Positions 1 to 19,689 of a stretch of DNA of 64,000 bases are shown here, piece after piece. How positions within the stretch are numbered: position 1 is the first letter of the stretch; each line of letters starts with the position of its first letter. Both the position numbers and the translations under genes were made by a program. The notes under the pieces are model-generated. The model was not told the origin of the DNA, ran no database searches, and saw nothing but the letters and a program-made list of their open reading frames with translations. Origin of the DNA: Methyloversatilis discipulorum (GTDB lineage Bacteria > Pseudomonadota > Gammaproteobacteria > Burkholderiales > Rhodocyclaceae); contig NZ_JADMJL010000021.1 in the NCBI RefSeq assembly GCF_018780585.1, forward strand, positions 62,001 through 126,000, written 5' to 3'.

Positions 1-48
1 GTTCGCAGGCCGCGCACCCCATCGTCCGTTCATCGAGAGAGGTCACCC

Positions 49-801
49 ATGATCCATCATCGCCTGCGTCCGTTCGCGGCGCCGCTCCTCGCGGCCGCCT
101 GCTTCGCACTCGCCGGTTCTGCCTACGCCAGCACCACCCACAGCGCCTTCGACGACATCGAGGATTCGATCGCCACCGACGGCTTCAACAACCTGACCGC
201 AGCCCGCATCACCGCCACGCAACTGGCTGCCGGCATCGCGTCGAACAGCGAAACAGAAGGCGGCGCCGTGCTCAGACGCACCTCCGGCGGCGCCTATCCG
301 GCCTCCTCGGGCCTGTACCAGTTCGCCGGCAACGGCTCGACCTTCGAAATGGTGGTCAGCGACGCGGTCGACGGCCTGACCAGCATCGTGTTCCAGACCT
401 ATATCAACGTGAGCACCGGCAGCAACGGCATCTACGGCGTGCTGGCGGCGAACAACCTGCCGCGCCTCAGCTTCAACGGCGGCGAGCAGTTCCTGCTCTC
501 CAGCTCACAGGCGAGCGAGAACCTGGGCTACACCGATTTCTTCACCGGTGAGTTCGTCGCCTCCGACCCGAACAACCCGAACCACCTCACCTTCACCTGG
601 AACCTGGCCAGCCTCGGCGTCACCGTGCCGGTAGACAGCTTCCGCATCACCTTCGCCACCGACAACCACGCGCAGTCGCTCGCCTTCCAGGTCGATCAGC
701 TGGTGGCCGCACCGGTGCCGGAACCGCAGACCGCCGCATTGCTGCTCGGCGGCATGGCGGTGATCACGCTGGTCGCCCGCCGCCGCACGCGTCAGCACTG
801 A
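49..801 (+). CDS. PEP-CTERM sorted surface/exported protein
   Basis: A 250-residue exported protein. It starts with a Sec-type signal peptide (basic start, hydrophobic stretch, cleavage near the ASTT site at about residue 27) and ends in a PEP-CTERM sorting signal: VPEP at residues 223-226, a hydrophobic segment, then an Arg-rich tail (RRRTR). Proteins of this class are recognised by an exosortase and released to the surface or matrix. The middle is Ser/Thr/Asn/Gly-rich, predicted beta-rich, and has no Cys after the signal region. A purine-rich RBS (AGAGAGG) lies 7 bases before the ATG. It sits directly upstream of the haem receptor gene, with only a GC-rich hairpin between them. Function is unknown; its position suggests a surface role linked to haem capture, which is inference. 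Confidence 0.85.
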   Translation: MIHHRLRPFAAPLLAAACFALAGSAYASTTHSAFDDIEDSIATDGFNNLTAARITATQLAAGIASNSETEGGAVLRRTSGGAYPASSGLYQFAGNGSTFEMVVSDAVDGLTSIVFQTYINVSTGSNGIYGVLAANNLPRLSFNGGEQFLLSSSQASENLGYTDFFTGEFVASDPNNPNHLTFTWNLASLGVTVPVDSFRITFATDNHAQSLAFQVDQLVAAPVPEPQTAALLLGGMAVITLVARRRTRQH

Positions 802-817
802 GTCCGTTTCGCCGCAT

Positions 818-847
818 GCGGGCGGTGCCCTCGAGGGTGCCGCCCGC
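818..847 (+). terminator. GC-rich hairpin between PEP-CTERM gene and haem receptor gene
   Basis: A long inverted repeat: GCGGGCGG pairs with CCGCCCGC, and the stem extends inward through GCCC/GGGC around a TCGA loop. No clean T-run follows, so it may be an attenuator or mRNA-stability element that lowers expression of the receptor relative to the upstream gene rather than a full terminator. Confidence 0.45.
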
Positions 848-879
848 TTGCGTTCGCCCATCCAGACTGTCACGACATC

Positions 880-3195
880 TTGAAACACCGAATTCCCCTG
901 CGCCCGCAGCTGCTGCTGGCGCTGATGTGGCCGCTCGCGTGCGCGGCGCAGGACGATGCGCTGTCTGAGGAGGACGTCGTCACGCTGCCGGAAGTGGAGG
1001 TGCGCGACTCCCGCGACGACATCCGTCCGCCCGCGGTCGAACTGACCCCCGATCGGCCGGTCACGACGATAGGACCCGAGGCGATCGAACGCCGCCAGGC
1101 GGGCACGATATTCGACCTGCTGAAGGACGTGCCGGGTGTCGCCGTCGACGGCGGTCCGCGCGCCAGCGGCATGAAATTCAACCTGCGCGGCTTCTCCGAC
1201 AACGAGGACGTGCTGTTCAAGATCGACGGCGCAGTGAAAGGCTTCGAGAAGTACCGCTTCGGCAGCGGCGTATTCATCGAACCCGAACTGCTGAAGGCCA
1301 TCGAGATCGAGCGCGGGCCGTCGCTGAAGTCCGGCTCCGGTGCGCTCGGTGGCACCATCTCGGCCACCACGAAATCCGCTGCCGACTACCTGCGGCCGGG
1401 TGAGCGCGTCGGCGCCCAGATCAAGTATGGCTACAACGCGAACAGCAATGAGCGGCTGCGCATGGTGACGGTATACGGTCGGCCGAACGGTTATCTCGAT
1501 CTGGTCGTCTCGATCGCCCGGCGCGACTCGGACGACATCCGCCTGCCCGACCGCAGCCGGCTCGACCTGACCGCGGTGCACTCGGAAAGCCGCTTCGCCA
1601 AGGCCACCTTCTACGCCAGCGACGACCTGACGCTGGAACTGAGCCAGACCTACTACACGGGAGGCCCCGAGCGCGCACCCTACGACGCGACTGCCGGCAG
1701 TGCAGGCCAGTTCGGCGTGGTCGAACGCAGCATCGAGGACACCACCACCAATCTGCGCATGAACTACACGCCGGCCGATTCATGGATCGCGCTGCGCGGC
1801 ACCCTCGCCTATGAAACGACCGACCTGGATGACGTGCATCGCATCACCCAGAGCCGCATCTGCGTATCGCCATCGACCGCCTTTCCGGCGGCTTTCCGCA
1901 TCGATCGCTGCGACGACGCCTGGCGCTACTCGATCTGGACCGCCGAAGTGTTCAATGACACGCGTTACGCGATTGGCGAACTGCAGGGCGTGCTCAGCAT
2001 CGGCTACCAGGGCATACGTAATAGCCGCGATATCGCACGCGTCACCTCGCGCGCGCTGACCAACCAGCAGGTCTACCCGAACGGCTTCAACGAGGCGCAA
2101 CCGCCGGGCGACAAGGTGTCCGATGCACTGATCGTCGAGAACGCCTTCACGCTCGGCGCCTTCACCTTCACGCTGGGTGCGCGACTCGACCGCTACCACG
2201 TCAGCGCCGAGGGTCAGACGCGCACCAACATGATCGCCGCCGGACAGTCGCCGGACATCCGCTTCGTCAAGCTGTCGCCGGCGGCGGCGCTCACCTGGCG
2301 CATCCCGCGCAGCGACTGGTCGGCCACCGTGCGCTACCACGAAGCTTTCCGCCCGCCGCTGGTTGACGAGTACTTCGCCCGCGGCAGTTTCGCCAGCCGC
2401 TGCGCGAAAAGCGCTGGCTGGTCCTTGCCCGGCAATCCGGTGCTTTATCCGGAACCGCTGTACGACCCTTCAGGCTACGGTCAGACCTACGATCCTGCAC
2501 TCGACCTCGCGCCCGACAACGAAATCTGCGGAGCACTCTACCGGCCGCAGGAATCGTCGAACCACGAACTGACGCTGGCCTGGATGCCGCAACCCTCCTC
2601 GCCGCGCGACGGGCGCTGGCAGGCGCGGGTCACCTACTACGACATCCACACCCGCCATCTCCTGACGTCGTTGAGCAATATCGGGGGCGAAGTCGGCCAG
2701 CCGGGCAAGGAGCGGCGCAAGGGCACCGAACTGGAAATCAGTTACGACGGACTGCATGCCTTCTCGTCGCTGTCGTGGTCACAGATCGACGGCCGCATCA
2801 CCAATGCGGTGGCCGGCACCGACTACGCGCTCTATGGCGTGCCCGGCGACACACTGAGCATCAGTGCCGGCGTGCGCGGGTTCGACGGGCGGGTCGAAGC
2901 CGGCGTGCGGATACGCGACATCGCTGACCGCCGGGCGGCTGCCAGCACGGTAGAAACCGTGTGCTCGCGTCCCGGCACACTGGTCGTGCCGGGCGTCGGC
3001 ACGATAGGCACGCAATACGGCGTACGCCTGTACGACCTGTTCGCCAGCTGGCAGATGACGCGTGACACACAACTGCGCTTCAATCTCGACAACCTCACCA
3101 ACGAAACCTACTGCCTGCAGGATGGCTTCGCCGGTGCGGTCGGCATACAGGCGCCCGGTCGGACGGCGAAGCTGTCGGTGACGATGAGGTTCTGA
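880..3195 (+). CDS. hmuR: TonB-dependent haem/haemoglobin-type outer-membrane receptor
   Basis: A 771-residue outer-membrane TonB-dependent receptor. A short signal peptide ends near residue 24, followed by a TonB-box-like segment (VVTLPEVEV), a plug domain at about residues 55-175 (DLLKDVPGVAVDG, NLRGFSDNEDV, IEIERGPSL, SGALGG) and a long beta-barrel ending in an aromatic residue (VTMRF), as the Bam machinery requires. The plug wording is typical of the haem/haemoglobin/transferrin receptor group. The only start that keeps the signal peptide is TTG at 880. The hmuSTUV genes 2-5 kb downstream support haem as the substrate. The exact ligand (free haem, haemoglobin or a carrier) cannot be read from the sequence. 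Confidence 0.85.
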   Translation: MKHRIPLRPQLLLALMWPLACAAQDDALSEEDVVTLPEVEVRDSRDDIRPPAVELTPDRPVTTIGPEAIERRQAGTIFDLLKDVPGVAVDGGPRASGMKFNLRGFSDNEDVLFKIDGAVKGFEKYRFGSGVFIEPELLKAIEIERGPSLKSGSGALGGTISATTKSAADYLRPGERVGAQIKYGYNANSNERLRMVTVYGRPNGYLDLVVSIARRDSDDIRLPDRSRLDLTAVHSESRFAKATFYASDDLTLELSQTYYTGGPERAPYDATAGSAGQFGVVERSIEDTTTNLRMNYTPADSWIALRGTLAYETTDLDDVHRITQSRICVSPSTAFPAAFRIDRCDDAWRYSIWTAEVFNDTRYAIGELQGVLSIGYQGIRNSRDIARVTSRALTNQQVYPNGFNEAQPPGDKVSDALIVENAFTLGAFTFTLGARLDRYHVSAEGQTRTNMIAAGQSPDIRFVKLSPAAALTWRIPRSDWSATVRYHEAFRPPLVDEYFARGSFASRCAKSAGWSLPGNPVLYPEPLYDPSGYGQTYDPALDLAPDNEICGALYRPQESSNHELTLAWMPQPSSPRDGRWQARVTYYDIHTRHLLTSLSNIGGEVGQPGKERRKGTELEISYDGLHAFSSLSWSQIDGRITNAVAGTDYALYGVPGDTLSISAGVRGFDGRVEAGVRIRDIADRRAAASTVETVCSRPGTLVVPGVGTIGTQYGVRLYDLFASWQMTRDTQLRFNLDNLTNETYCLQDGFAGAVGIQAPGRTAKLSVTMRF

Positions 3196-3623
3196 ACGAT
3201 ATTTCATATGTCAGGAACACTGCAGGGCTGCAAGAATGCGCTTCTGTACTGGATTTCCGCGCCCAATCAATGACATGCAAATGAAACACGCGTTGCACGC
3301 ATGAACACCGTCATGCACCGTAACTGGACACATCACGGCGTTTGAATGTTCGCCATGCGGGAAAAAACCATTCCTAATCATGCTCCAGCGCCATTCATCG
3401 CACTTGGCTCGGCTCTTGCTGGGACGGCCTGTTTCCGCGACGCCCCTGCGAGGGGCGCCGCGCCCATCCTGTCTTTCCGCACAGGAGTCACGTCCGATGT
3501 CTGCCAGCATGGCCGTTCTACAGCTGTCGATGACTGCGCACCGGCACGCCACGCCCGGAACGCGGCGCCACGCGCCGACGCGCGGCAGCGGACGGGCCGC
3601 CACCTCCATTGAATGACCGCACC
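3196..3623. other. 428-bp non-coding stretch after the haem receptor
   Basis: No convincing gene. It is less GC-rich than its surroundings at the left end. A short hairpin (GCGCCCCTCGCAGGGGCG type) lies near 3438-3463. A 39-codon frame at 3497-3616 has an AGGAG-like site, but its low-complexity Arg/His/Thr composition does not look like a protein. It probably carries the end of the receptor transcript and the promoter of the next gene. Confidence 0.5.
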
Positions 3624-3986
3624 ATGCCACATCCATCCGACCCCTACTGCCTCGGTCTCATGCCCGATCCGTCCGAATTTCCCGCACTGGCGGCCAGCGT
3701 CGATGCCGTCATGCTCATCATCCGGCTGTCGGCGCGCTACGGGCCGCTGATGTTCCTGCACGACGCGACCGGTGACGTGCTGCAGCCGCGCTGCCGCCCG
3801 GTTGGCTCGCTGCCGGTCGACGATCATGACGTCAAGCTGGGTGAAGTGGCCGGGTGCGAGTACTGGATCGCACCGTCGGCACTCGATCAGCTCGGCTCGG
3901 GCACTCTGCTGCTCGACGTGCTGGAAGAACGCGGTGACGCCACCGGGCTGGCCAGCCGCTTCGTTCTGCGCAAGGTCGGCAACTGA
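3624..3986 (+). CDS. DUF779-family protein lacking the family's cysteine pair
   Basis: A 120-residue protein that matches the DUF779 family along its length: RLSARYGPLMF near residue 37, then DHDVKLGEVAG, then YWI and LLLDVLEERG. DUF779 genes usually sit beside acetaldehyde or aldehyde dehydrogenase genes and carry a Ser-Gly-Gly-Cys-Cys-Asp segment after the PLMF motif. Here that segment reads LHDATGD, so the vicinal cysteines are gone and only a later Cys (QPRC) remains. No aldehyde dehydrogenase lies nearby. I chose ATG 3624 over an in-frame TTG at 3609 because the homology begins after it. The biochemical role of the family is not known to me. Confidence 0.65.
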   Translation: MPHPSDPYCLGLMPDPSEFPALAASVDAVMLIIRLSARYGPLMFLHDATGDVLQPRCRPVGSLPVDDHDVKLGEVAGCEYWIAPSALDQLGSGTLLLDVLEERGDATGLASRFVLRKVGN

Positions 3987-4130
3987 TCACCCAGCGGGGC
4001 GGCGCAACGTCGTCCCGCTCCTCACTGGCGGCCGCCTCCGGGCCCTTGCATTCATCTCGTTCCCCTTTGCTCGCCCACGCCGCGATGCTGCGCAGCGCTG
4101 TCGTCATGCCTGAGGCTTGACACCATACTG

Positions 4131-4149
4131 CGAATCATTATCATTTAAT
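4131..4149 (+). promoter_or_regulatory. Fur-box-like operator
   Basis: The segment contains AATCATTATC followed by an AT-rich arm. This closely matches the right half of the Fur consensus (GATAATGATAATCATTATC). It lies 36 bases before the ATG of the HemP-like gene, in an otherwise GC-rich region, and is placed to repress that gene and perhaps the PEP-CTERM/hmuSTUV genes behind it when iron is sufficient. Confidence 0.65.
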
Positions 4150-4184
4150 GAAATCGACCGTCCGCGGCCAGACCGCAAGCATCC

Positions 4185-4376
4185 ATGTCCGCCTCAGGCA
4201 ACGAACCGACCGAAGCATTGAAGGTGCGCCTGTCCGCCCTGCTGGACGACCTGATCCGGCACGACGGCTTCGGCTCGCTGAGCGTCGAGGTCCGCCTGCT
4301 CAAGCGCGGCCAGAAGGAAGTCATCATCGACTGCGGCAAGCAGTATCGGTACGTCATCGATTTCGCGCCCGGCTGA
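4185..4376 (+). CDS. hemP: HemP-like small protein
   Basis: A 63-residue protein. Its second half (VEVRLLKRGQKEVIIDCGKQYRY, interrupted here by no gaps) follows the pattern of HemP/HmuP proteins: a Leu-rich strand, a Gly, a basic strand with Val/Ile, then a Tyr-Arg segment. The usual basic C-terminal tail ending in Lys-Leu-Ile-Leu-Thr-Lys is missing and the protein ends FAPG. HemP/HmuP is a small cytoplasmic factor needed, with Fur, for expression of haem receptor genes in several proteobacteria. A Fur-like box just upstream and hmuS downstream support the call. The family match rests on pattern, so it remains tentative. Confidence 0.45.
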   Translation: MSASGNEPTEALKVRLSALLDDLIRHDGFGSLSVEVRLLKRGQKEVIIDCGKQYRYVIDFAPG

Positions 4377-4498
4377 GACCGGCGTGACGCAGCACACTCC
4401 GGCGGCGCGGGGCCGCGGAGCAGGTTTTCAAATCACAGAAACCGCCTGATCGATCGCCTTCGCGGGGAAGGGATAGATGGCTCAGAACGAGGTCCATC

Positions 4499-5146
4499 AT
4501 GTCTTTCCGCCTTCTGCTGTCCGCTGGCGCCCTGTGCGCACTGTCCTCCACCGCCGCCTTCGCCACCAGCGCCAGCTGGGACACCCCGCTCGCCGGTCAT
4601 GACGGCAACGGCAGTTCCGCCGCCACGCCGTGGGCCAGCGGCAGCGTCTATGCCGAGTGGAACGTGTTCGACAGCTTCAGCACCGACGCCACGCCCGACA
4701 TCGCCGGCAGTGGCAGCGTCAGCCAGCTCAACCCGGGCGCCGGCAGCTTCCTGACCGGCAGCGGCAACCTGTATAGCGCCGCCGGCGCAGCCTTCTTCCT
4801 GGTCGACCTCGACGTCGCGCAGAGCGGCACCTGGAATGTGTGGCTGCGCATCGCGACCCAGGGCACGGCGGCCGACACCGTCGCCACGCTCAATGGCATC
4901 GCCGCGAACAAGGTGGTCAGTTACAGCGCCGCGCTCGGCGGCTTCGGTGGCAGCGAGGAAGAGGCCTACTGGACCTGGGTGGTCACCGATCCGCTGTCGC
5001 TGCAGTTCAGCTTCACCAGCTCGGAAGCGCACCTCAGCCTCGACCAGCTCGCCGTACTCGCCCAGTCGGTGCCGGAACCGGCGACCTGGATGTCGCTGGC
5101 TGCCGGCCTCGGCCTGCTCGGCGCCCTGTCGCGTCGTCGCGCCTGA
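4499..5146 (+). CDS. PEP-CTERM protein inside the haem-uptake gene set
   Basis: A 215-residue exported protein with a clear signal peptide ending after FATS (about residue 23) and a C-terminal PEP-CTERM signal: VPEP at residues 191-194, an Ala/Gly/Leu hydrophobic segment, and the tail SRRRA. The mature part is rich in Ser, Thr, Ala, Gly and aromatic residues and contains no Cys, fitting a small beta-sandwich. An ACGAGG-like RBS precedes the ATG. It lies 122 bases after the HemP-like gene and 15 bases before hmuS on the same strand, so it is very likely co-transcribed with the haem importer. The likely role is an exosortase-processed surface factor in haem capture; this is inferred from position only, and no known haem-binding motif is visible. 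Confidence 0.85.
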   Translation: MSFRLLLSAGALCALSSTAAFATSASWDTPLAGHDGNGSSAATPWASGSVYAEWNVFDSFSTDATPDIAGSGSVSQLNPGAGSFLTGSGNLYSAAGAAFFLVDLDVAQSGTWNVWLRIATQGTAADTVATLNGIAANKVVSYSAALGGFGGSEEEAYWTWVVTDPLSLQFSFTSSEAHLSLDQLAVLAQSVPEPATWMSLAAGLGLLGALSRRRA

Positions 5147-5161
5147 TACCGGGAGACCGCG

Positions 5162-6223
5162 ATGACGCCGCACACCGATCCGGAAAGCCTCTATCACACC
5201 TTCCACGCGCTGAAGGCGGAGCGCCGCCTGCGCAATCGCGACGCCGCCGCAGCCCTCGGTATCAGCGAGGGCGAGGCGATTGCCAGCGGCGTCGGCCGCG
5301 ACGCCGTGCGCCTGACCGCGCCCTTCGACACGCTGTTTCGCCGCATGCCCGAACTGGGCGAGGTGATGGCGCTGACCCGCAACGAAGCCGCTGTCCATGA
5401 AAAGACCGGCTGCTTCGAACAGATGTCCGGCGATGCCAAGGTCGGTCTGGCGCTGGGCAGCGCCATCGACCTGCGCATCTTCTACGGTCGCTGGGCATAC
5501 GGCTACGCAGTGACCGAACAGGGTCCGAAGGGCGAGTCGCGCAGCCTGCAGTTCTATGACGCGCATGGCGACGCCGTGCACAAGGTGTTCTCGCGCGCCG
5601 GCACCGATCTCGCAGCCTGGGACCGGCTGGTCGCCGAATTCGCCGCCGCCGACCAGAGCGCCGGCGAAAAGGTCGCGCCGCGCAGCGCGCCCGCCAGCGA
5701 CGAAACGCCGCTCGACGCAATCGACGCCGTCGCCTTCCGCCGCGACTGGCTGGGCATGCAGGACACGCACGACTTCTTCCCGCTGCTGCGCCGGCACAAG
5801 GTATCGCGCCGCCAGGCCATGCAGATCGCGCCCGAGGGCCACGCCAACCGGATCGGCAACGATCTGACGCGTTCGCTGCTCGAAGCGGCGGCCGCCGATG
5901 GGGTGTCGGTCATGTGCTTCGTCGGCAACCCGGGCATGATCCAGATCCACACCGGGCCGGTGCATCGGGTCGAAGTGATGGGGCCCTGGCTCAACGTACT
6001 CGACCCCGGCTTCAACCTGCACCTGCGGCAGGACCTGGTCGACCAGACCTGGATCGTGCGCAAGCCGACCGCCGATGGCGTCGTCACCTCGGTCGAACTG
6101 CTCGACGCAGCCGGTGAAACCATCGCGCTGTTCTTCGGGGAGCGCAAACCGGGCAAGCCGGAGCGCGAGGACTGGCGCGCACTGGTGGCCCAGCTCGGCA
6201 CCGCCGACAGCCTCGCGGCATGA
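5162..6223 (+). CDS. hmuS: Haemin-degrading/haem-trafficking factor HmuS
   Basis: A 353-residue cytoplasmic protein made of two repeats of the HemS/ChuX-like fold, the normal length for HmuS/HemS. Typical family segments are visible in each half: LTRNEAAVHEKTG in the first; in the second, FVGNPGMIQIHTGPV followed by MGPWLNVLDPGFNLHL. HmuS-type proteins accept haem delivered by the ABC importer and store it or break it open to release iron. The stop overlaps the hmuT start (ATGA), so translation is coupled. It follows the PEP-CTERM gene by 15 bases. Confidence 0.92.
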   Translation: MTPHTDPESLYHTFHALKAERRLRNRDAAAALGISEGEAIASGVGRDAVRLTAPFDTLFRRMPELGEVMALTRNEAAVHEKTGCFEQMSGDAKVGLALGSAIDLRIFYGRWAYGYAVTEQGPKGESRSLQFYDAHGDAVHKVFSRAGTDLAAWDRLVAEFAAADQSAGEKVAPRSAPASDETPLDAIDAVAFRRDWLGMQDTHDFFPLLRRHKVSRRQAMQIAPEGHANRIGNDLTRSLLEAAAADGVSVMCFVGNPGMIQIHTGPVHRVEVMGPWLNVLDPGFNLHLRQDLVDQTWIVRKPTADGVVTSVELLDAAGETIALFFGERKPGKPEREDWRALVAQLGTADSLAA

Positions 6224-7068
6224 GCCGCCGACTGCTCCGCAGCACGCTGGTGGCGCTGCTGTTCGCCGCCGGCGCGGCAGTCGCCGCACCGGCGCAGCGG
6301 CTGGTCACGGTCGGCGGCGCGGTGACCGAAATCGTCCATGCGCTGGGCGCAGCCGACCGTATCGTCGCCACCGACACCACCAGCACCTGGCCGGCGTCCG
6401 CGCAGGCGCTGCCCAAGGTGGGCTATCAGCGTGCGCTGGCGGCGGAGGGCGTGCTGTCGATGCGGCCCACCCACCTGATCGCCACCGCCGATGCCGGCCC
6501 GCCAGTCACGCTGACCCAGTTGCGCGGCGCCGGCGTGCAGGTGATCCAGCTGCCGCCGGACCACAGCGCGGCGCAGGTCGGCAACGCGATCCGCATGGTC
6601 GCCGCCGCGCTGGCGATGGAAGACGCCGGCCGCACACTGGCTGAGCGCTTCGATCACGACTGGAAGACGGCACAGCGCGAGGTGGGCGCCCTGCCCGGCC
6701 GGCCGCGCGCGCTGTTCATCCTCGACCACGGCGGCAGCAGTCCGATGGTGGCTGGCGACGACACGGCGGCCGACGCGATGCTGGGCTACGCCGGCGCCGT
6801 CAACGTGATGGCCGGACGCTTCCGCGGTTACCGGCCGTTGACGCTCGAAGCCGCGTTGGCCGCGGCGCCCGACGTGATCGTGACGACTGACGAGGCCATC
6901 GCCGCCGCCGGTGGCGCCAGCGCCTTCCTCGCCCGCCCCGGACTGGCGGCGCTGCCGGCCGCGCGGGCGGGCCGGCTGGTCAGCCTCGACGCACTGCGCA
7001 TGCTGGGCTTCAGCCCGCGCCTGCCACAGGCGGTGAGCGAACTGGCGCGCCGGATGCGCGCGCCGTGA
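6220..7068 (+). CDS. hmuT: Haem ABC transporter periplasmic binding protein HmuT
   Basis: A 282-residue periplasmic binding protein with a signal peptide cleaved around AVAA-PAQR (residues 20-26). The body has the class III binding-protein fold: RLVTVGGAVTEIVHALG at the mature start, VGYQRALAAEGVLSM in the middle, then RALFILDHGGSSPMVAG and YRPLTLEAALAAAPDVI. This arrangement is typical of haem-binding HmuT/ShuT proteins. It overlaps hmuS by four bases at its start and hmuU by four bases at its end, so the set is translated as one unit. Confidence 0.92.
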   Translation: MSRRLLRSTLVALLFAAGAAVAAPAQRLVTVGGAVTEIVHALGAADRIVATDTTSTWPASAQALPKVGYQRALAAEGVLSMRPTHLIATADAGPPVTLTQLRGAGVQVIQLPPDHSAAQVGNAIRMVAAALAMEDAGRTLAERFDHDWKTAQREVGALPGRPRALFILDHGGSSPMVAGDDTAADAMLGYAGAVNVMAGRFRGYRPLTLEAALAAAPDVIVTTDEAIAAAGGASAFLARPGLAALPAARAGRLVSLDALRMLGFSPRLPQAVSELARRMRAP

Positions 7069-8114
7069 ATACGCGCGCACTCACTCTGTCGGCCGGGGCG
7101 CCTGCTTCGCTGGCACTGCCGGCGCTCGCGCTGGCGCTGTTCTGCGTCGTCGTGCTGGCACTGGGCAGCGGCGCGGTCAGCCTGTCGCCGACGGCCGTGC
7201 TCGGCGCGCTGTTCGGTGCCGACGCCGGCAGCGAAGCCGAACTGGTGGTGCGCACGCTGCGCCTGCCGCGCGTGCTGCTCGGCGTGATCGCTGGCGCCGG
7301 TCTGGGCATCGCCGGTGCCGCGATGCAGGGTCTGATGCGCAATCCGCTGGCCGACCCGGGGCTGGTCGGCGTCAGCAGCGGCGCGGCACTCGCGGCCGCC
7401 TGTGTCGTCGTTCTCGGCGAACGGGCGATGAGCGCGGGCGGCTGGCTGGCCAGCTCGGCACTGCCGCTGGCCGCCTTCGCCGGCGCCGCGCTGACCACCG
7501 CCGTCGTCTATGCGGCCTCGCGCCGCAATGGCCGCAGTTCGGTCACGCTGATGCTGCTGTCGGGCATTGCCATCAACGCGCTGGCGATGTCCGGCATCGG
7601 TCTGCTCATGTTCATGGGCAGCGACGCGCAGGTGCGGCAGTTCACCTTCTGGACGCTGGGCAGCCTCGCCGGCGCGACCTGGCCCGGCGTGGTGGCGGCA
7701 ACGCTGGCGGTCGCGCTGGCACTGGGCGCGCTGCTGCGCCGCGCCGGACCGCTCGATGCGCTCGCGCTGGGCGAGTCGCAGGCCGCCCACCTCGGCGTCG
7801 CCACCGCGCGGCTGAACCGCAGTTGCGTGCTGCTGATCGCGCTGTCGGTCGGCGCGACCACGGCGCTGACCGGCACGCTGGGCTTCATCGGGCTGATCGC
7901 GCCTCACCTCGCACGCCGGCTGGTCGGTCCGGCACATGCCCGACTGCTGCCGGCCAGCGCACTGACCGGCGCCGCACTGGTCGTGCTGGCCGACAGCGCC
8001 GCCCGTACCTGGGTGGCGCCGGCCGAACTACCGATCGGCGTGCTGACGGCACTGTTCGGCGCCCCCTTCTTCATCGCCCTGCTGCGCCGTCGCGCCGCGC
8101 ACGAAAGCACCTGA
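7065..8114 (+). CDS. hmuU: Haem ABC transporter permease HmuU
   Basis: A 349-residue inner-membrane permease of the FecCD/BtuC family with about ten hydrophobic segments. Family landmarks are RLPRVLLGVIAGAGLGIAG near residue 68, MQGLMRNPLADPGLVG directly after it, LGSLAGATW in the middle, and GFIGLIAPHLARRLVG (the segment that contacts the ATPase) near residue 272. It starts at GTG 7065, overlapping the hmuT stop (GTGA). It forms the haem channel with HmuV. Confidence 0.93.
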   Translation: MNTRALTLSAGAPASLALPALALALFCVVVLALGSGAVSLSPTAVLGALFGADAGSEAELVVRTLRLPRVLLGVIAGAGLGIAGAAMQGLMRNPLADPGLVGVSSGAALAAACVVVLGERAMSAGGWLASSALPLAAFAGAALTTAVVYAASRRNGRSSVTLMLLSGIAINALAMSGIGLLMFMGSDAQVRQFTFWTLGSLAGATWPGVVAATLAVALALGALLRRAGPLDALALGESQAAHLGVATARLNRSCVLLIALSVGATTALTGTLGFIGLIAPHLARRLVGPAHARLLPASALTGAALVVLADSAARTWVAPAELPIGVLTALFGAPFFIALLRRRAAHEST

Positions 8115-8115
8115 C

Positions 8116-8901
8116 ATGCTCGCTGCCCGCAATCTGACCGTTCGTGCCGGCCGTCGCCTGCTGCTCGACGACGTTACGCTGACGCTGAAGCCGGGCGAAC
8201 TGCTGGCGCTGGTCGGCCCGAATGGCGCCGGCAAGACCACGCTGCTGCGCGCACTGGCCGGCGATATGGACGTCGCACACGGCAGCGTGCTGTGCGCCGG
8301 CGCCGCGCTTCAGGACATCGCACCGCTTGCGCTGGCGCAAATGCGCGCCGTGCATGCCCAGCACCAGCGCACCGACCTCGAATACACCGCGGCCCAGGTG
8401 GTCGAGCTCGGCCGCTTCCCTCACCACCACGGACGCCCGGGCGCCGAAGACCGGCAGATCGCACGCGCCGCGATGGCGCTGACCGGCGTCGACGGCATGG
8501 CGGCACGCATCTGTGCCACGCTGTCCGGCGGCGAGCAGGCACGCGTGCACCTGGCGCGCGCGCTGGCGCAGATCTGGACGGCACCCGAAGGCGCGCACGC
8601 GCTGCTGCTCGACGAGCCGGTGGCGGCGCTCGACATCGCCTGGCAACACCGCACGCTGGCCTGCGCACGCGAATTCGCCCGGCGTCGAGGCTGTGCGGTG
8701 CTGGCCATCGTGCATGACCTGAATCTGGCTGCGCGCTACGCCGACCGGATGGTGCTGCTGGCTGAAGGTCGCATCCGCGCCGATGCCGCCCCCGCCGCCG
8801 TGCTGGCGTCGCCCGAACTGGCACAGGCCTTCGGCCTGCGCTGCCGGCTGCTGCATGACGCGCACGACGGACAGGCTGTACTGATCGCCGAGCCGGCATG
8901 A
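8116..8901 (+). CDS. hmuV: Haem ABC transporter ATPase HmuV
   Basis: A 261-residue ABC ATPase. The Walker A motif GPNGAGKTT is at residues 34-42, the signature LSGGEQ at about residue 136, Walker B ALLLDEP at about 163-169, and the switch His in IVHDLN near residue 200. Length and order match HmuV/HemV rather than a fused transporter. The ATG is one base after the hmuU stop. It powers haem import through HmuU and is the last gene of the haem set. Confidence 0.94.
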   Translation: MLAARNLTVRAGRRLLLDDVTLTLKPGELLALVGPNGAGKTTLLRALAGDMDVAHGSVLCAGAALQDIAPLALAQMRAVHAQHQRTDLEYTAAQVVELGRFPHHHGRPGAEDRQIARAAMALTGVDGMAARICATLSGGEQARVHLARALAQIWTAPEGAHALLLDEPVAALDIAWQHRTLACAREFARRRGCAVLAIVHDLNLAARYADRMVLLAEGRIRADAAPAAVLASPELAQAFGLRCRLLHDAHDGQAVLIAEPA

Positions 8902-9020
8902 TCGGCAAAAATGCGTGGACAGGGGTTTAGAAGACGGCGCGCGCGCCGTAGACCTCGGTGCCCGTCCACCACGAGTGAACGCGGCAGACCCGGCACCAGA
9001 GACACGGCAGATATCCTCCG

Positions 9021-9692
9021 ATGGCAAGCAATCCGATCGAATCCAGCACCTCGACCTTCCTCGGCATGGGCCTGAAGGTCGGCGACCGCATGCAGCTCGA
9101 TCCACCGGCCAAGATCACCGGAGGCGCACGCGTCGTCAGGCTGGTCGGCTATACCGAAGACCGTTCGCTGCTGGTCAGCATGCCCGACGAAAAGAACTGG
9201 AGCGGCTCGCTGATCGAAGGCGACACCGTGCTGGTGCGCACCTTCTCCGGACGCAAGGCCTTCAGCTTCAACAGCCGCGTGCTCAAACGCGCAGTCAGTC
9301 CCTACGAATACCTGCACCTGGAGTTTCCGCCCGCGGTATCGAGCCGTCGCATCCGCCGCGCCGAACGCGTCCGCACCGACATCGCGGTACAGCTCAAGGG
9401 CGCTGACGCGCGCGCCGTGCGCGTCACCAATCTGAGCGCCACCGGGGCCGAACTGCGCAGCAGCGCCGCCGCGGGCGAAGTGGGGGAAACGCTGAGCTTC
9501 ACGCTGCCGCTCAATCTGCATTTCGTCGACATCGAGGTGCAGTGCGAAGGCACGGTGCGCAACGCCCATCCGCTGCCGGACGGCGGTGTCGCCTGCGGCA
9601 TCGAATTCGCAGAACTGGACAACCAGAGCTGGATACTGCTGCGCAGCTACGTCTATCAGCACCTGCTCGATTCGCCGTCCGGGCGCGTCTGA
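9021..9692 (+). CDS. PilZ-domain (YcgR-like) c-di-GMP-binding protein
   Basis: A 223-residue cytoplasmic protein with two beta-barrels: an N-terminal YcgR-N-like domain (residues 15-100, with GDRMQLDPP and VLVRTFSGRKAFSF) and a C-terminal PilZ domain from about residue 108. The PilZ c-di-GMP residues are present: an Arg-rich RRIRRAERVR at 109-118 and the NLSATG loop at 137-142 (D/N-x-S-x-x-G). Such proteins slow flagella or regulate exopolysaccharide when c-di-GMP is high. It stands alone between the haem and ferrous-iron genes; its 3' end overlaps the convergent Cys-rich gene by 37 bases. Which process it controls cannot be told from the sequence. Confidence 0.88.
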   Translation: MASNPIESSTSTFLGMGLKVGDRMQLDPPAKITGGARVVRLVGYTEDRSLLVSMPDEKNWSGSLIEGDTVLVRTFSGRKAFSFNSRVLKRAVSPYEYLHLEFPPAVSSRRIRRAERVRTDIAVQLKGADARAVRVTNLSATGAELRSSAAAGEVGETLSFTLPLNLHFVDIEVQCEGTVRNAHPLPDGGVACGIEFAELDNQSWILLRSYVYQHLLDSPSGRV

Positions 9693-9841
9693 AGCGCGGA
9701 CGGCCGGCTGCAGCCGGTGCATCCACCGCAACCGGCGGACGGCGCACGCAGGGCGCGCCACCACTGACGCAGTGCCCGACCGGCCGCCAGCGCGGCCAGC
9801 GCCACGGCACACAGCGCAACGAAGTCGGTCAGTACGGTCAT
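9656..9841 (-). CDS. FeoB-associated Cys-rich membrane protein
   Basis: A 61-residue protein with one N-terminal transmembrane segment (residues 5-23), a short basic region (RALRQWWRALRA), then the cysteine cluster CGGCTGC and a further C-terminal Cys. This matches the small Cys-rich partners that follow feoB in many bacteria and are thought to assist or regulate ferrous-iron uptake. Its start overlaps the end of feoB by four bases, so it is translationally coupled. Its last 37 bases lie antisense to the end of the PilZ gene. Confidence 0.72.
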   Translation of the reverse strand: MTVLTDFVALCAVALAALAAGRALRQWWRALRAPSAGCGGCTGCSRPSALQTRPDGESSRC

Positions 9842-11709
9842 CCACTCACTCCTGATGCGATGCGGAAGGTCAGGAAGGCTGCCAGCCAGGCCAGCCCGAA
9901 CAGATAGCCCGCCATCAGCAGCGGCGCCCGCCAGCCACCGGTTTCACGCCGCACGGTGGCCAGCGTCGACAGACATTGCGGCGCGAACACGAACCAGGCG
10001 AGCAGCGACAACGCTGTGGGCAGCCCCCAGCTGGCCGAAATCAGCGGTGCCAGCGCCTGCGCAGTGTCGTCCGCGGTGGCCGACAAGGCATAGACGGTAC
10101 CCAGTGCGCTGACCGCCACCTCGCGCGCCGCCATGCCGGGCACCAGCGCGACCGCGATCTGCCAGTTGAAGCCCACCGGCTCGAACAGCGGCAGCAGGAA
10201 GCGGCCCAGCGTGCCGGCGAAGCTGTACTCGATCGCCGGGCCGGTGGCGCCGGGCGGCGGTGCCGGGAAGGTGGCGAGGAACCACAGCAGCACGGTCAGC
10301 GCGAGGATGATGCCGCCGACCCGGCGCAGGAAGATGAGCACGCGCTGCCACAGGCCGATCGCGATATTGCGCACCGACGGCCAGTGATAGTCCGGCAGTT
10401 CCATCATCAGCGTCTGCGTCAGGTCGCGCGCACCGAAGCGCTTGAGCAGCCAGGCGATGGCGATGGCCGACACGATGCCCGCCAGGTAGAGCGCGAACAG
10501 CACCAGCCCCTGCAGTTCCAGCCCGCCGGCAACGGTGCGCGACGGAATGAAGGCGCCGATCAGCAGCGCGTACACCGGCAGCCGCGCCGAACAGGTCATC
10601 AGCGGCGCGATCATGATGGTGACCCAGCGGTCGCGCGGGTTCTGGATCGTGCGCGTGGCCATGATGCCCGGTATCGCGCAGGCGAAGCTCGACAGCAGCG
10701 GAATGAAGGAGCGGCCGGACAGCCCGACGCCGCCCATCAGCCGGTCGAGCAGGAAGGCGGCGCGCGGCAGGTAGCCCGATTCCTCGAGCAGCAGGATGAA
10801 GAAGAACAGGATGACGATCTGCGGCAGGAAGACCAGCACGCCGCCCAGCCCGGCGACGATGCCGTCGACCAGCAGACTGCGCAGCAGGCCGTCCGGCAGG
10901 ATCGATCCGACCGCTTCGCCGATCGTGGCGGTCGCCGCCTCGATCCAGCCCATCGGCGCCTCGGCCCAGGCGAACACCGCCTGGAAGATCAGGAACAGCA
11001 GCGCGCACAGCAGCAGCGGGCCGACCAGCGGATGCAGCAGCACGCGGTCGGCGCGGTCGCTGAAGGCGTGCGCCTGCACGGTGTCGAGCCCGAGCGAAGC
11101 CAGGATGTCGCGCACACGTCTGTGGTCGTCGGCGACGTCGCCCGCTTCCGCCGCCGGCAGCGCGGCGCCCGGGCGCACGTCCTCGAGCAGTTCGAGCAGC
11201 GCGTCGGCGCCACCCGACTTCACCGCCACCGTGGTCACCACCGGCACGCCGAGCGCTTTCGACAGCGCCTCGGCATCGACGTGGATGCCACGCGCCCGTG
11301 CCAGATCGGTCATGTTCAGCGCAACCACCACCGGCAGCCCCTGGCGCATCAGACCGAGCACCAGTCTGAGCTGACGCGGCAGGTGGGTCGCATCGACCAC
11401 CGCAAGGATCAGATCGGGACGACGCTCGCCGGACAGACGCCCCGCGAGCACATCACATGTGACCTGCTCGTCCGGCGAATGCGGCGTCAGGCTGTAGGTG
11501 CCGGGCAGATCGAGCACCGCCAGCCGGCGGCCGGACGGGGTGCGCAGCACGCCCTCCTTGCGCTCGACGGTCACGCCGGCATAGTTCGCCACCTTCTGCC
11601 GGCTGCCGGTGAGCAGGTTGAACAGCGCGGTCTTGCCACAATTCGGGTTGCCCACCAGCGCCAGCAAGGCCGGACCGAGCCGGCTGCTATCGACCACCGT
11701 CTGCGTCAC
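9838..11709 (-). CDS. feoB: Ferrous iron transporter FeoB
   Basis: A 623-residue inner-membrane ferrous-iron transporter. The N-terminal GTPase domain shows G1 GNPNCGKT at residues 20-27, G3 DLPGTYSL near residue 68 and G4 NMTD near 127. A helical GDI-like domain follows, then the membrane part with two Gate-type repeats, including SGYLPRAAFLLDRLMGG and the SFACAIPGIMATRTI segment that carries the conserved Cys. At 623 residues it is on the short side for FeoB (often 700 or more); the loss seems to be in loops since all landmarks are present. It overlaps feoA by four bases and the Cys-rich gene by four bases. Confidence 0.95.
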   Translation of the reverse strand: MTQTVVDSSRLGPALLALVGNPNCGKTALFNLLTGSRQKVANYAGVTVERKEGVLRTPSGRRLAVLDLPGTYSLTPHSPDEQVTCDVLAGRLSGERRPDLILAVVDATHLPRQLRLVLGLMRQGLPVVVALNMTDLARARGIHVDAEALSKALGVPVVTTVAVKSGGADALLELLEDVRPGAALPAAEAGDVADDHRRVRDILASLGLDTVQAHAFSDRADRVLLHPLVGPLLLCALLFLIFQAVFAWAEAPMGWIEAATATIGEAVGSILPDGLLRSLLVDGIVAGLGGVLVFLPQIVILFFFILLLEESGYLPRAAFLLDRLMGGVGLSGRSFIPLLSSFACAIPGIMATRTIQNPRDRWVTIMIAPLMTCSARLPVYALLIGAFIPSRTVAGGLELQGLVLFALYLAGIVSAIAIAWLLKRFGARDLTQTLMMELPDYHWPSVRNIAIGLWQRVLIFLRRVGGIILALTVLLWFLATFPAPPPGATGPAIEYSFAGTLGRFLLPLFEPVGFNWQIAVALVPGMAAREVAVSALGTVYALSATADDTAQALAPLISASWGLPTALSLLAWFVFAPQCLSTLATVRRETGGWRAPLLMAGYLFGLAWLAAFLTFRIASGVSG

Positions 11710-12008
11710 GCTGCCGCTCCATCGGCCGCTCGCACCATTACGCAGTCGGCTTCGGCGCGGCGCAGCGCAAACGTCGACACGCCGACCCTTACCGCCAGCG
11801 GCTCGCCGCCCGGCTGACCGCGACGCAGCACGCGTACCGATTCACCACTGATGAACCCGAGTTCGCGCAGCCGGCTGGCCCATTCCGGCGCCCGGGCGTC
11901 GGCACGCACCTCGACCACGGTCATCGGCGCGCCGACGGTGGCGCTGCTCAGCGCGAAGCCGGCGGTCGGACCGGGCGTCTGGGATTCCACGTCGGAAGGC
12001 GTCGGCAT
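11706..12008 (-). CDS. feoA: FeoA family SH3-like protein
   Basis: A 100-residue cytoplasmic protein. After a short variable N-terminus, residues 28-90 form the FeoA SH3-like barrel (APEWASRLRELGFISGESVRVLRR, read across two strands, then GEPLAVRVGVSTFALRRAEA). FeoA is required with FeoB for ferrous-iron uptake and may act on its GTPase. The stop overlaps the feoB start. A Fur-like site lies 24-43 bases upstream of its ATG, where it would cover the promoter. Confidence 0.92.
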   Translation of the reverse strand: MPTPSDVESQTPGPTAGFALSSATVGAPMTVVEVRADARAPEWASRLRELGFISGESVRVLRRGQPGGEPLAVRVGVSTFALRRAEADCVMVRAADGAAA

Positions 12009-12051: not shown

Positions 12052-12152
12052 ACCCGAGCGGACCACACAGAGACAGTCCGCGCAATCCGCCGACCCGCGC
12101 GGAATTTCGATTGCACGCGAATCGATTGTTGCGACGCCGCAACATCCAGTTT

Positions 12153-12172
12153 CCAATAACCGTTCTCATTTA
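12153..12172 (+). promoter_or_regulatory. Fur-like box in front of the siderophore receptor
   Basis: The segment CCAATAACCGTTCTCATTTA (minus strand AATGAGAACGGTTATTGG) resembles a Fur operator and lies about 120 bases before the receptor ATG. Together with the feoA-proximal box it makes this divergent region a likely iron-controlled two-way promoter. Confidence 0.5.
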
Positions 12173-12293
12173 CACTGCGCCGCACTTGCCCATGTTCGTG
12201 CTCCTCGCACGCGCCGGGCAGCGGACCAGCCAGCCCCATTGCGTCGCAGCAAGCCAGTCCAGCCCCCGATATCAACCTACTGGACTAGCACTG

Positions 12294-18700: not shown

Positions 18701-19689
18701 TGGTCGACCGCCAGACCAAGGCGCCGCCGCCGACACTGGGCAAGCCCACCATCAAGGCGCAGGTGATCCACTTCATCAACAAGCCGATGCCGGGCAACCT
18801 GCCGAAGCGCACCTCGCGCGCGATGCTGGACATCGAGGACGCCGCCATCGTGCCGGTCATCCGCGACCCGAAGCGCGCGTCCGAAGACCAGGAAGCGGTG
18901 TTCTACTTCCCCGGCTGCGGGTCCGAGCGGCTGTTCTCGCAGGTCGGTCTGGCCACCCAGGCCATGCTCTACCACGTCGGCGCGCAGACCGTGCTGCCGC
19001 CCGGCTACCTGTGCTGCGGCTATCCGCAGACCGCCGGCGGCAACGCGGAAAAGGGACAGCAGATCAGCACCTCGAACCGCGTGCTGTTCCACCGTGTCGC
19101 TAACACGCTGAACTATCTCGACATCAAGACCGTGATCGTGTCCTGCGGCACCTGCATGGACCAGCTGCAGCAGTACGAATTCGACAAGATCTTCCCCGGC
19201 TGCCGGCTGCTCGACATCCACGAGTACCTGATGGAAAAGGGCGTCAAGCTCGAAGGCGTGCAGGGCGTGCGCTACATGTATCACGACCCCTGCCACACGC
19301 CGATGAAGACGCACGCGCCGCTGAAGGTGGTGAATCAGCTGGTCGGCACGGCCGACGGCACGAAGGTGGCGCTGAATGATCGCTGCTGCGGCGAGAGCGG
19401 CACGCTGGCGGTCAGCCGGCCGGACATTTCGACCCAGGTGCGCTTCCGCAAGGAAGAGGAAATGCGCAAGGGCGCGGACGTGCTGCGCGCCGACGGTTTT
19501 GCCGGCGAGGTGAAGATACTGACCTCCTGCCCGTCCTGTCTGCAGGGCCTGTCGCGCTACGACAACGACAGCAGCACCCAGGCCGACTACATCGTGGTCG
19601 AGATGGCGCGCCACCTGCTCGGCGAGGACTGGGCCGCCCGCTACGTCGAGCAGGCCAACGCCGGCGGCATCGAGCGCGTGCTGCTTTGA
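15754..19689 (+). CDS. Fused FAD-linked oxidase / Fe-S oxidoreductase (DUF3683 type, GlcD-GlcF-like)
   Basis: A 1311-residue fusion. Residues 1-170 are the DUF3683-type N-terminal region. About 180-410 is a PCMH-type FAD-binding domain ([16 protein letters not shown] near 214, then [13 protein letters not shown] near 295). An FAD-oxidase C-terminal domain follows to about 800, with [14 protein letters not shown] and GEHGIG. Then comes a two-cluster ferredoxin module, [11 protein letters not shown] at about 840 and [12 protein letters not shown] at about 901, and a CCG-type heterodisulfide-reductase-like region with [10 protein letters not shown] (about 1086) and CCGESG (about 1210). It joins in one chain the functions split in GlcD and GlcF, suggesting oxidation of a 2-hydroxyacid such as D-lactate or glycolate with electrons passed to the respiratory chain. 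The substrate is not proven. ATG 15754 was preferred to two in-frame TTGs just upstream. Confidence 0.85.

Follow-up and report, generated by a model that had tools for sequence, protein, structure and literature searches.

The haem-uptake locus

The locus lies in a 64,000-nucleotide stretch of the genome of Methyloversatilis discipulorum, a water bacterium (contig NZ_JADMJL010000021.1, positions 62,001 to 126,000; assembly GCF_018780585.1), referred to here as the window. At its start, two genes for PEP-CTERM proteins, termed here PEP1 and PEP2, lie among the genes for a TonB-dependent haem receptor and HmuSTUV (Table 1). The original prediction had described two such proteins interleaved with a complete haem-uptake gene set, one directly before the receptor and the other between a HemP-like gene and hmuS with a spacing of 15 bases, and this observation is confirmed by our analysis. 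Both proteins have a visible VPEP motif, hydrophobic run, and Arg tail, and both exceed the Pfam PF07589 cut-off of 20.7 bits. The receptor gene, hmuS, hmuT, hmuU, and hmuV are all as described, with overlaps between hmuS and hmuT and between hmuT and hmuU.

Some corrections are needed, however. The gene that had been taken for HemP encodes an unnamed, highly conserved 63-residue protein that is not HemP (PF10636) by Pfam. No family matched it at E<=1, and at E<=10 there was again no match for it or for three of four relatives, while the fourth gave one irrelevant hit (E 0.28); a profile search of the PDB with the small protein likewise returned a single irrelevant hit (E 0.47). In addition, a DUF779 gene lies between the receptor gene and the small gene, and the iron block continues upstream of the window with bfr, tonB, exbB, exbD, and a second rpsD.

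Table 1. Genes and sites at the haem-uptake locus (window coordinates)
Position	Strand	Feature	Evidence
49..801	+	PEP1: signal peptide, mature domain (about 130-714), PEP-CTERM tail; ends 78 bases before the haem receptor ORF	PF07589, 22.3 bits; orthologues in 7 of 8 congeneric genomes
880..3195	+	TonB-dependent haem/haemoglobin-type receptor (the TTG start at 880 is the choice of the ORF finder)	PF07715 plug and PF00593 barrel; best NCBIfam TIGR01785 TonB-hemin, 265.7 bits, below its cut-off of 316.85; best PDB sequence match ShuA 3fhh_A, E 3.8e-22, over residues 61-298
3609..3986	+	DUF779 protein, role unknown	PF05610, 46 bits; in 6 of 7 named congeneric loci, not in L056
4117..4144	+	Sigma-70-like promoter, TTGACA-16-TATCAT	11 of 12 positions; the only promoter-like site found in 1-9100, where shuffles give 0.5 on average
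4129..4143	+	Fur-box-like site overlapping that promoter (TGCGAATCATTATCA)	12 of 14 specified positions; the only match in 64 kb at up to 3 mismatches, 0.07 expected
4185..4376	+	63-residue protein; invariant ..RGQKE.I..C.KQYR.V.D..	No Pfam match; the 13 other rows of its alignment 58-84% identical; in 11 of 399 genomes of the order
4499..5146	+	PEP2: signal peptide, mature domain (4568-5068), PEP-CTERM tail; 15 bases before hmuS	PF07589, 27.9 bits; family in 12 of 399 genomes of the order, own included
5162..6223	+	hmuS, cytoplasmic haem-handling protein	PF05171 HemS, 280 bits; PF06228, 206.1 bits
6220..7068	+	hmuT, periplasmic binding protein	PF01497, 117.2 bits
7065..8114	+	hmuU, permease	PF01032 FecCD, 291.8 bits
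8116..8901	+	hmuV, ATPase	NF010068 heme ABC transporter ATP-binding protein, 280 bits, cut-off 261

Because PEP-CTERM genes are abundant in this genome (49 matches to TIGR02595 at E<=0.001 in 4.56 Mb), about 0.1 would be expected by chance in 8.9 kb. Conservation provides the stronger argument. Eight distinct congeneric genomes besides the window (loci L050-L056 and L133; L numbers denote loci and G numbers genomes of the comparison sets) all have the PEP2 gene, and seven of these eight have the PEP1 gene, while the eighth has a PEP2-family gene in its place. M. thermotolerans has another receptor (38% identical) and a PEP2-family gene instead of PEP1.

Distribution of PEP2 and the small gene

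Absence of the PEP-CTERM genes from this position in most relatives had been named in advance as an outcome that would count against the prediction. Within the genus this is not what is seen, given that 8 of 8 genomes have PEP2. Among HmuS loci at large, however, most lack it, since PEP2 is present in 9 of the 80 loci that were kept, and the small gene is in these same 9. An initial list of PEP tails, obtained by pattern matching with thresholds of our own, held obvious false hits (for example in L074, L097, L103, and L109) as well as true but unrelated PEP-CTERM genes (L085, L086, and L093); only loci matched by the PEP2 profile were counted. Similarly, a single-sequence search of 150 genomes of the family gave many matches to the tail alone and was replaced by a profile of the mature domain.

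This profile, which excludes the PEP tail, matched 12 of 399 genomes of the order. Leaving out the own genome, G482 (the same genome as L060, which was in the profile), and G302 (the same as L061, 96% identical to it and known before), 8 of the remaining 9 have a copy directly upstream of a haem-receptor-like gene, and 6 of the 9 also have it beside hmuSTUV. It should be noted that the profile was built from copies at haem loci, which favours such copies, and that two copies lie away from a complete haem locus (L168 and L169). The small gene and PEP2 co-occur in 10 genomes, with PEP2 alone in 2, the small gene alone in 1, and neither in 386 (Fisher 2.9e-17); that both searches drew on the same 399 genomes is inferred from shared genome labels, and neither the Fisher nor the Mantel values of this work correct for kinship. 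The one copy of the small gene without PEP2 is interrupted by stops near a receptor remnant. The small gene was not found in L135, L163, L168, or L174, and its absence from G508 may be due to the incompleteness of that genome (79%). Some genomes appear under two labels (G482 and L060, G302 and L061, G118 and L050, G070 and L055, all inferred to be the same); these were removed from the genome counts but not from the 35 upstream regions or the 33 alignment rows considered below. PEP2 is also missing from 20 of 31 exosortase-bearing HmuS genomes as well as from 71 of the 80 HmuS loci, so haem uptake does not need it.

PEP2 and the adjacent receptor diverge in step. Their distances correlate with r 0.84 over 15 pairs, and two paralogous pairs within genomes serve as a control: like pairs are 88/88% and 73/65% identical, while unlike pairs are 36-38/42-44% identical. 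Exosortase genes were found in 18 of 18 genomes tested, 16 of them with PEP2, although in G093 the match was only weak; in the own genome PF09721 matches twice (C39 and C23). Cleavage and sorting by exosortase were not examined.

PEP1 holds its place only within the genus. The five relatives found elsewhere, namely, the paralogue in the own genome and four in G173 and G219, are not beside haem genes, although three of these five have a Fur-like site within one mismatch. A role for PEP1 as part of a general haem module was rejected on these grounds.

In two relatives, PEP-CTERM metalloproteases lie inside the haem operon. Two proteins of G108 exceed the cut-off of 24 for the matrixin (M10) family PF00413, with 29.3 and 25.3 bits, whereas the pair in G154 is assigned only by 60% and 68% identity to those of G108. 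A protein at L158 falls below this cut-off with 19.2 bits, and its PEP-CTERM tail, at 18.8 bits, is also below the cut-off for such tails.

Fur-like sites

A Fur-like site with at most 1 mismatch is present in 18 of 35 upstream regions, where 0.01 would be expected, whereas 13 of the 35, that of PEP1 among them, have no such site within 2 mismatches. The pattern used is a consensus from general knowledge rather than one derived here, and its degenerate form (K/M) was chosen after sites had been seen; the plain form was tested on the window (Table 1) and on L130 with its own shuffles. No Fur-like site was found for PEP1 and the receptor, nor was a promoter-like site found for them in window bases 1-9100, although the bases upstream of the window were not scanned for promoters.

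Sequence and predicted fold of the PEP-CTERM proteins

Neither PEP1 nor PEP2 matches a haemophore or haem-binding family such as HasA, HmuY, or NEAT, since only PEP-CTERM families matched at E<=1 in Pfam and NCBIfam. A profile search of the PDB with PEP2 gave only pepsin, at E 0.08-0.1. No His is conserved in the PEP2 family, whereas Tyr69, the proposed ligand, is present in 23 of 24 members. Of five structural models of PEP2, only one was confident (pLDDT 79, compared with 56-61 for the other four). Its best fold matches are carbohydrate-binding modules (CBM35, CBM6), with E 3.5e-3 and TM below 0.5, so the resemblance is weak, and a fold like that of NEAT, HmuY, or HasA was not seen among the 50 of 1192 matches that were examined; whether PEP2 has the fold of a haemophore is thus left undecided by the comparison. 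The model of PEP1 was too poor (pLDDT 48.8), and no fold search was made with it.

A proposed model for surface haem acquisition

Taken together, these results have led us to propose that the locus is an exosortase-sorted, probably Fur-controlled haem-acquisition module in which PEP2 is the surface partner of the TonB haem receptor, a hypothesis that we regard as somewhat more likely than not. In this model, Fur leaves the promoter under iron starvation, and the small gene, PEP2, and hmuSTUV are transcribed, while PEP1 and the receptor would form a second short unit. PEP2 would capture haem or a haem protein and present it to its cognate TonB receptor, after which HmuTUV and HmuS would take haem in. 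In some relatives, PEP-CTERM M10 metalloproteases in the same operon, or in a second cluster preceded by a Fur-like site, would free haem from proteins. In the window, PEP1 probably fills the receptor-side slot that a PEP2-family protein fills elsewhere. The small protein, encoded by the first gene after the Fur-like site, may be a regulator or an accessory in the place of HemP, but this is a guess. The gene order, the tails, the exosortase genes, the Fur-like sites, the co-occurrence, and the co-divergence of PEP2 and receptor are established by the computation, whereas regulation by Fur, cleavage, surface location, the capture and hand-over of haem, and the function of the proteases are inferred from it.

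The interpretation offered in the original prediction, that the two proteins are a dedicated pair of surface or matrix haem-capture factors, is therefore supported only in part. Dedication to haem uptake is strongly supported for PEP2 by its conserved position in other genera, the Fur-box-like promoter, and the co-divergence with the adjacent receptor. A haem-capture factor is the best reading but is unproven, since no haemophore family matches, the predicted fold is only weakly like carbohydrate-binding modules, and the binding of haem and its delivery to the receptor were not assayed. In addition, PEP2 precedes hmuS rather than the receptor in the window. The pair is only half right, given the restriction of PEP1 at this place to the genus.

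A wider reading is possible, though we hold it to be somewhat less likely than not. In this view, the system would be a Gram-negative, exosortase-based counterpart of the sortase-anchored Isd haem relay, that is, a Fur-controlled regulon of exosortase-sorted proteins in which haem-capture proteins, each co-evolving with one TonB receptor, and exosortase-sorted metalloproteases mine haem in the extracellular matrix, together with a new 60-residue accessory protein.

PEP-CTERM proteins are numerous, and very few have a specific function. The PEP2 family would have a precise and testable one, tied to a receptor and to a probably iron-regulated operon. If so, the exosortase system would also serve nutrient capture, and the exopolysaccharide matrix would become a place where haem is held for its maker. 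The analysis also defines two unnamed families, PEP2 and the small protein, in environmental bacteria, some of them cultured species that can be tested.

Alternative explanations

It is possible, though doubtful, that PEP2 is instead an iron-starvation matrix protein, which binds exopolysaccharide through a sandwich like that of carbohydrate-binding modules and builds or localises matrix when iron is short, without touching haem. The best fold matches would be consistent with this, and PEP-CTERM proteins have been linked to exopolysaccharide [Haft 2006, PMC1569441] and to floc formation [PMC9850573]. However, the fold match is weak, and a general matrix protein need not co-diverge with one receptor, be exchanged together with it, or be duplicated with it.

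Less likely still, PEP2 could be an accessory of the receptor (a lid, an assembly or anchoring subunit, or a docking site for a haem protein) that does not itself bind haem. Its adjacency to and co-divergence with the receptor, the lack of a conserved His, and the nearby metalloproteases, which could deal with haem proteins, would fit such a role. On the other hand, in the window PEP2 is next to hmuS while PEP1, a different family that is at best distantly related (23% identity, E 0.004 with tails), sits at the receptor, and some loci have extra PEP2 copies without a receptor of their own. Finally, simple coincidence, suggested by the abundance of PEP-CTERM genes and the genus-specific place of PEP1, is very unlikely, being already contradicted by the recurrence of the PEP2 family in haem loci of other families with different gene orders; the Fur-like sites also speak against it.

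Relation to known systems

In the open-licence PMC literature that we examined on PEP-CTERM proteins or exosortases in connection with haem and iron acquisition, a search that did not extend to preprints or to the spellings "haem" and "haemophore", we found no description of this link. The closest published precedent found is ZepA of Anabaena and other bacteria [PMC10957091], a PEP-CTERM exoprotein that serves metal uptake under a FUR-family regulator (Zur), whose neighbourhoods include TonB-dependent transporters and other PEP-CTERM genes, and part of whose model is a beta sandwich. ZepA, however, suggests such a role for zinc rather than haem (the word "heme" does not occur in the main text of that paper), and homology to it was rejected because its H-X2-9-H-F/Y-H zinc motif is in 0 of the 33 rows of our PEP1 and PEP2 alignments, some of which are repeated between alignments.

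The locus has the core genes of an HmuSTUV haem ABC uptake system with a TonB haem receptor, but classical loci have HemP rather than this small protein and no exosortase substrates. Receptor-paired surface haem proteins (HasA-HasR, HpuA-HpuB, HmuY-HmuR, and the hemophilins) and the sortase-anchored Isd proteins are, as is inferred for the proteins studied here, secreted or anchored, encoded next to their receptor, and iron-regulated, and Isd is a transpeptidase-sorted haem relay; PEP1 and PEP2 have no Pfam or NCBIfam match to such families and another sorting route. Lastly, the PEP-CTERM/exosortase substrates of exopolysaccharide and flocs [Haft 2006, PMC1569441], in a paper whose main text mentions neither "heme" nor "TonB", have the same sorting tail, and exosortase is present here as well, but the genes studied here are embedded in a haem operon behind a Fur-like site.

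Gene arrangement at the haem locus

The window starts at base 62001 of contig C3 of a 4.56-Mb genome, whose nearest HmuS relatives in named genomes are Methyloversatilis (75-82% identity). The original prediction, that two PEP-CTERM genes are interleaved with a haem-uptake gene set, held for the genes themselves: PEP1, the haem receptor, DUF779, a 63-residue protein, PEP2, and hmuSTUV follow one another, both PEP-CTERM tails pass the Pfam cut-off, and the genome has two exosortases. However, the 63-residue protein, which had been called HemP-like, is not HemP by Pfam. It is unnamed and very conserved, with 20 invariant columns over 14 sequences from several genera. Just upstream, outside the window, lie bfr, tonB, exbB, exbD, and a second rpsD.

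Coordinates of the features discussed (L numbers are extracted loci and G numbers genomes examined in this work)
Sequence	Position	Strand	Feature
Window	49-801		PEP1
Window	880-3195		Haem receptor
Window	3609-3986		DUF779 gene
Window	4185-4376		63-residue protein (small gene)
Window	4499-5146		PEP2
Window	to 8901		hmuS, hmuT, hmuU, hmuV
Window	9838-12008	-	ORFs that look like feoB/feoA
Window	12111-14492	+	ORF that looks like a siderophore-type TonB receptor
L130 (just upstream of the window)	11234-11848		Second rpsD
L200	7045-9435		Unlinked metalloprotease cluster
L201	8091-10398		Unlinked metalloprotease cluster
L202	8210-9862		Unlinked metalloprotease cluster
L199	8118-9765		Unlinked metalloprotease cluster
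L188 (G480)	9661-10814		Decayed copy of the module
L166	5960-13339		Expanded haem locus
L167	7365-15312		Expanded haem locus
L131	8780-9619		Stand-alone PEP1-family gene
L209	9175-10003		Stand-alone PEP1-family gene
L211	9753-10622		Stand-alone PEP1-family gene
L135 (G108)	17471-19132		PEP-CTERM-like genes next to the haem locus (with L136)
L136	702-6217		PEP-CTERM-like genes next to the G108 haem locus (with L135)

Conservation within and beyond the genus

Absence of the PEP-CTERM genes from this position in most relatives had been named beforehand as an outcome that would count against the prediction. Within the genus, this is not what was found. Eight distinct congeneric genomes besides the window (loci L050-L056 and L133; L132 and L134 repeat L050 and L055) keep the block from bfr to hmuV, with PEP2 in 8 of 8 and PEP1 in 7 of 8. 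The DUF779 gene is in 6 of 7 named congeneric loci. The exception is M. thermotolerans (L056), in which the receptor is only 38% identical to that of the window, no DUF779 gene was found, and a PEP2-family gene stands where PEP1 should be; thus, the receptor and the upstream PEP-CTERM gene differ together.

Beyond the genus, the picture is sparser. Of 80 HmuS loci kept from GTDB genomes (99 were found), 9 contain PEP2 by profile, namely L050-L056, L060, and L061, and the small gene is found in exactly these 9 and in no other of the 80 (there was one noise hit, in L124, at E 0.015). Of 50 of these HmuS genomes tested for exosortase, 31 pass the cut-off. PEP2 is in 11 of the 31 (7 congeneric genomes, plus 4 of the 43 others searched) and in 0 of the other 19 (Fisher 0.0035, not corrected for kinship).

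A profile of the PEP2 mature domain without the PEP tail matched 12 of 399 genomes of the order and 2 of 398 of the phylum, the latter being the own genome and G173, both already found; consequently, the family is narrow. It should be noted that the 10 rows of this profile all came from haem loci, which favours such copies. When the own genome, G482 (= L060, a profile row), and G302 (= L061, near-identical to it) are set aside, 9 genomes are new, and in 8 of the 9 a copy sits directly upstream of a haem-receptor-like gene. In G177, G396, G508, G154, G173, and G219, it is also near hmuSTUV, while in G451 and G262 it is found with receptor and small gene only. By places, 13 of 15 new matches lie in such loci. 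The exceptions are contig 7 of G262 (L169) and G254 (L168), whose copy has a sub-cut-off PEP tail (14.2 bits), a Fur-like site upstream, and a receptor fragment about 6 kb away. L166 and L167 are expanded haem loci with three and four PEP2 copies and two receptors each. In addition, the search of the 43 other HmuS genomes yielded two more cases, a Rhizobacter MAG and Methylophilus sp. QUAN, which again sit directly upstream of a haem-receptor-like gene. Gene orders differ between groups, so this is not one inherited block.

The small gene, searched on its own in 399 genomes of the order, is in 11. Ten of these are genomes with PEP2 in a haem locus; the eleventh, G480, has a copy interrupted by stops near a receptor remnant, without PEP2, although a same-genus relative (G451) has an intact module. 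The small-gene profile was built from PEP2 loci, which favours the overlap, but the lack of intact copies elsewhere in the 399 does not follow from that. PEP2 occurs without the small gene in G254 and G508 (G508 is 79% complete), and the small gene was not found in L135 (genome G108) or in locus L174 either.

Putative Fur sites

The only promoter-like site found in positions 1-9100 (11 of 12 positions; shuffles give 0.5) overlaps the only Fur-box-like site of the window, 41 bases upstream of the small gene. In 35 upstream regions of module genes from the window and relatives, 18 have such a site with at most one mismatch, where 0.01 are expected from local first-order models, and 22 have at most two, where 0.09 are expected. 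These regions include near-duplicates, and the degenerate pattern was chosen after first looks. The other 13 regions are those of L050, L158, and L159 (three mismatches each), both tested units of G177 and of G154, the small gene of G396 (its hmuS has a site), G508, one of the PEP2 copies of G173, L169, the own metalloproteases, and PEP1.

Pairing of PEP2 with the receptor

For 15 PEP2-family/receptor neighbours, the two distance tables correlate (r 0.84, permutation p 1e-4). The PEP1/receptor pair of the window is not among them, as PEP1 is another family. However, kinship alone could give such a correlation, so the paralogues are the better test. G173 and G219 each have two receptors, each with its own PEP2. 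Between the genomes, pair a is 88% (PEP2) and 88% (receptor) identical and pair b is 73% and 65%, while the values across pairs are 36-38% and 42-44%. The pairs stay together as pairs.

PEP-CTERM metalloproteases

In G108 (between receptor and hmuS) and G154 (between hmuV and receptor), the haem operon holds another PEP-CTERM protein and two PEP-CTERM proteins with zinc-protease motifs. The two of G108 pass Pfam M10, while those of G154 were assigned by identity to them. L158 has one (below the M10 cut-off), and Methylophilus has both next to the locus. A search with one of these proteins found relatives in 10 of 22 genomes. In genomes G005 and G070 the three-gene cassette, and in G909 the two protease genes, form an unlinked cluster with a Fur-like site (1, 2, and 1 mismatches, respectively), whereas the own genome has the two protease genes on contig C77 without such a site. 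Three of the four unlinked clusters of PEP-CTERM M10-like metalloproteases in Methyloversatilis (L199-L202) have a Fur-like site upstream, and the link of these proteases to haem in the present genome is inferred from relatives. Next to the G108 haem locus are five more PEP-CTERM-like genes, two with lamin-tail and SdiA-regulated domains and one alkaline-phosphatase-like.

The PEP1 family

The PEP1 family was found in 3 of 215 genomes of the order (own, G173, and G219) and, in 150 family genomes, full-length only in the genus. Its own paralogue (C77) and the four copies in G173 and G219 are not beside haem genes. PEP1 itself has no Fur-like site, yet three of these five (in L131, L209, and L211) have one with one mismatch upstream, suggesting iron control outside haem loci too.

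Predicted structure of PEP2

The best PEP2 model is a beta sandwich (pLDDT 79, pTM 0.81; the other four models have 56-61). The best PDB matches are CBM35 modules, with E 3.5e-3 and TM below 0.5, and none reaches E 1e-3; this neither shows nor excludes haem binding. Across 24 members, Trp22, Trp31, Gly99, and Gly110 are invariant, and Tyr69 is in 23. By analogy with tyrosine-ligated haem proteins, Tyr69 is our candidate ligand.

Possible role and known precedents

Given these findings, the best reading of PEP2 is an exosortase-sorted surface partner that captures haem or haem proteins for its TonB receptor. The proposal that a dedicated pair of PEP-CTERM proteins serves haem capture is partly supported: haem capture is unproven, and PEP1 does not share the recurrence of PEP2 in haem loci. 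Two other hypotheses are still possible, namely that PEP2 is an iron-starvation matrix protein or that it is a receptor accessory that does not bind haem. Coincidence is very unlikely for PEP2.

The only precedent we found for a PEP-CTERM protein in metal uptake is ZepA (PMC10957091), which acts for zinc under Zur and has a conserved histidine motif that PEP1 and PEP2 lack. In the founding PEP-CTERM paper (PMC1569441), "heme" and "TonB" do not occur in the main text, and our literature searches showed no description of a haem link. Thus, the haem uptake core and the sorting tail are each known, but they are joined here in a way that we did not find in print.

Neighbouring genes

The second ribosomal protein S4 (rpsD) in the iron/haem block lacks any cysteine and is possibly a metal-sparing S4; relatives of it are in 9 of the 80 HmuS loci (L050-L056, L060, and L064). 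Downstream of hmuV, the ORFs that look like feoB/feoA and a siderophore-type TonB receptor, with which no search was made, suggest that the iron island continues in this direction as well.
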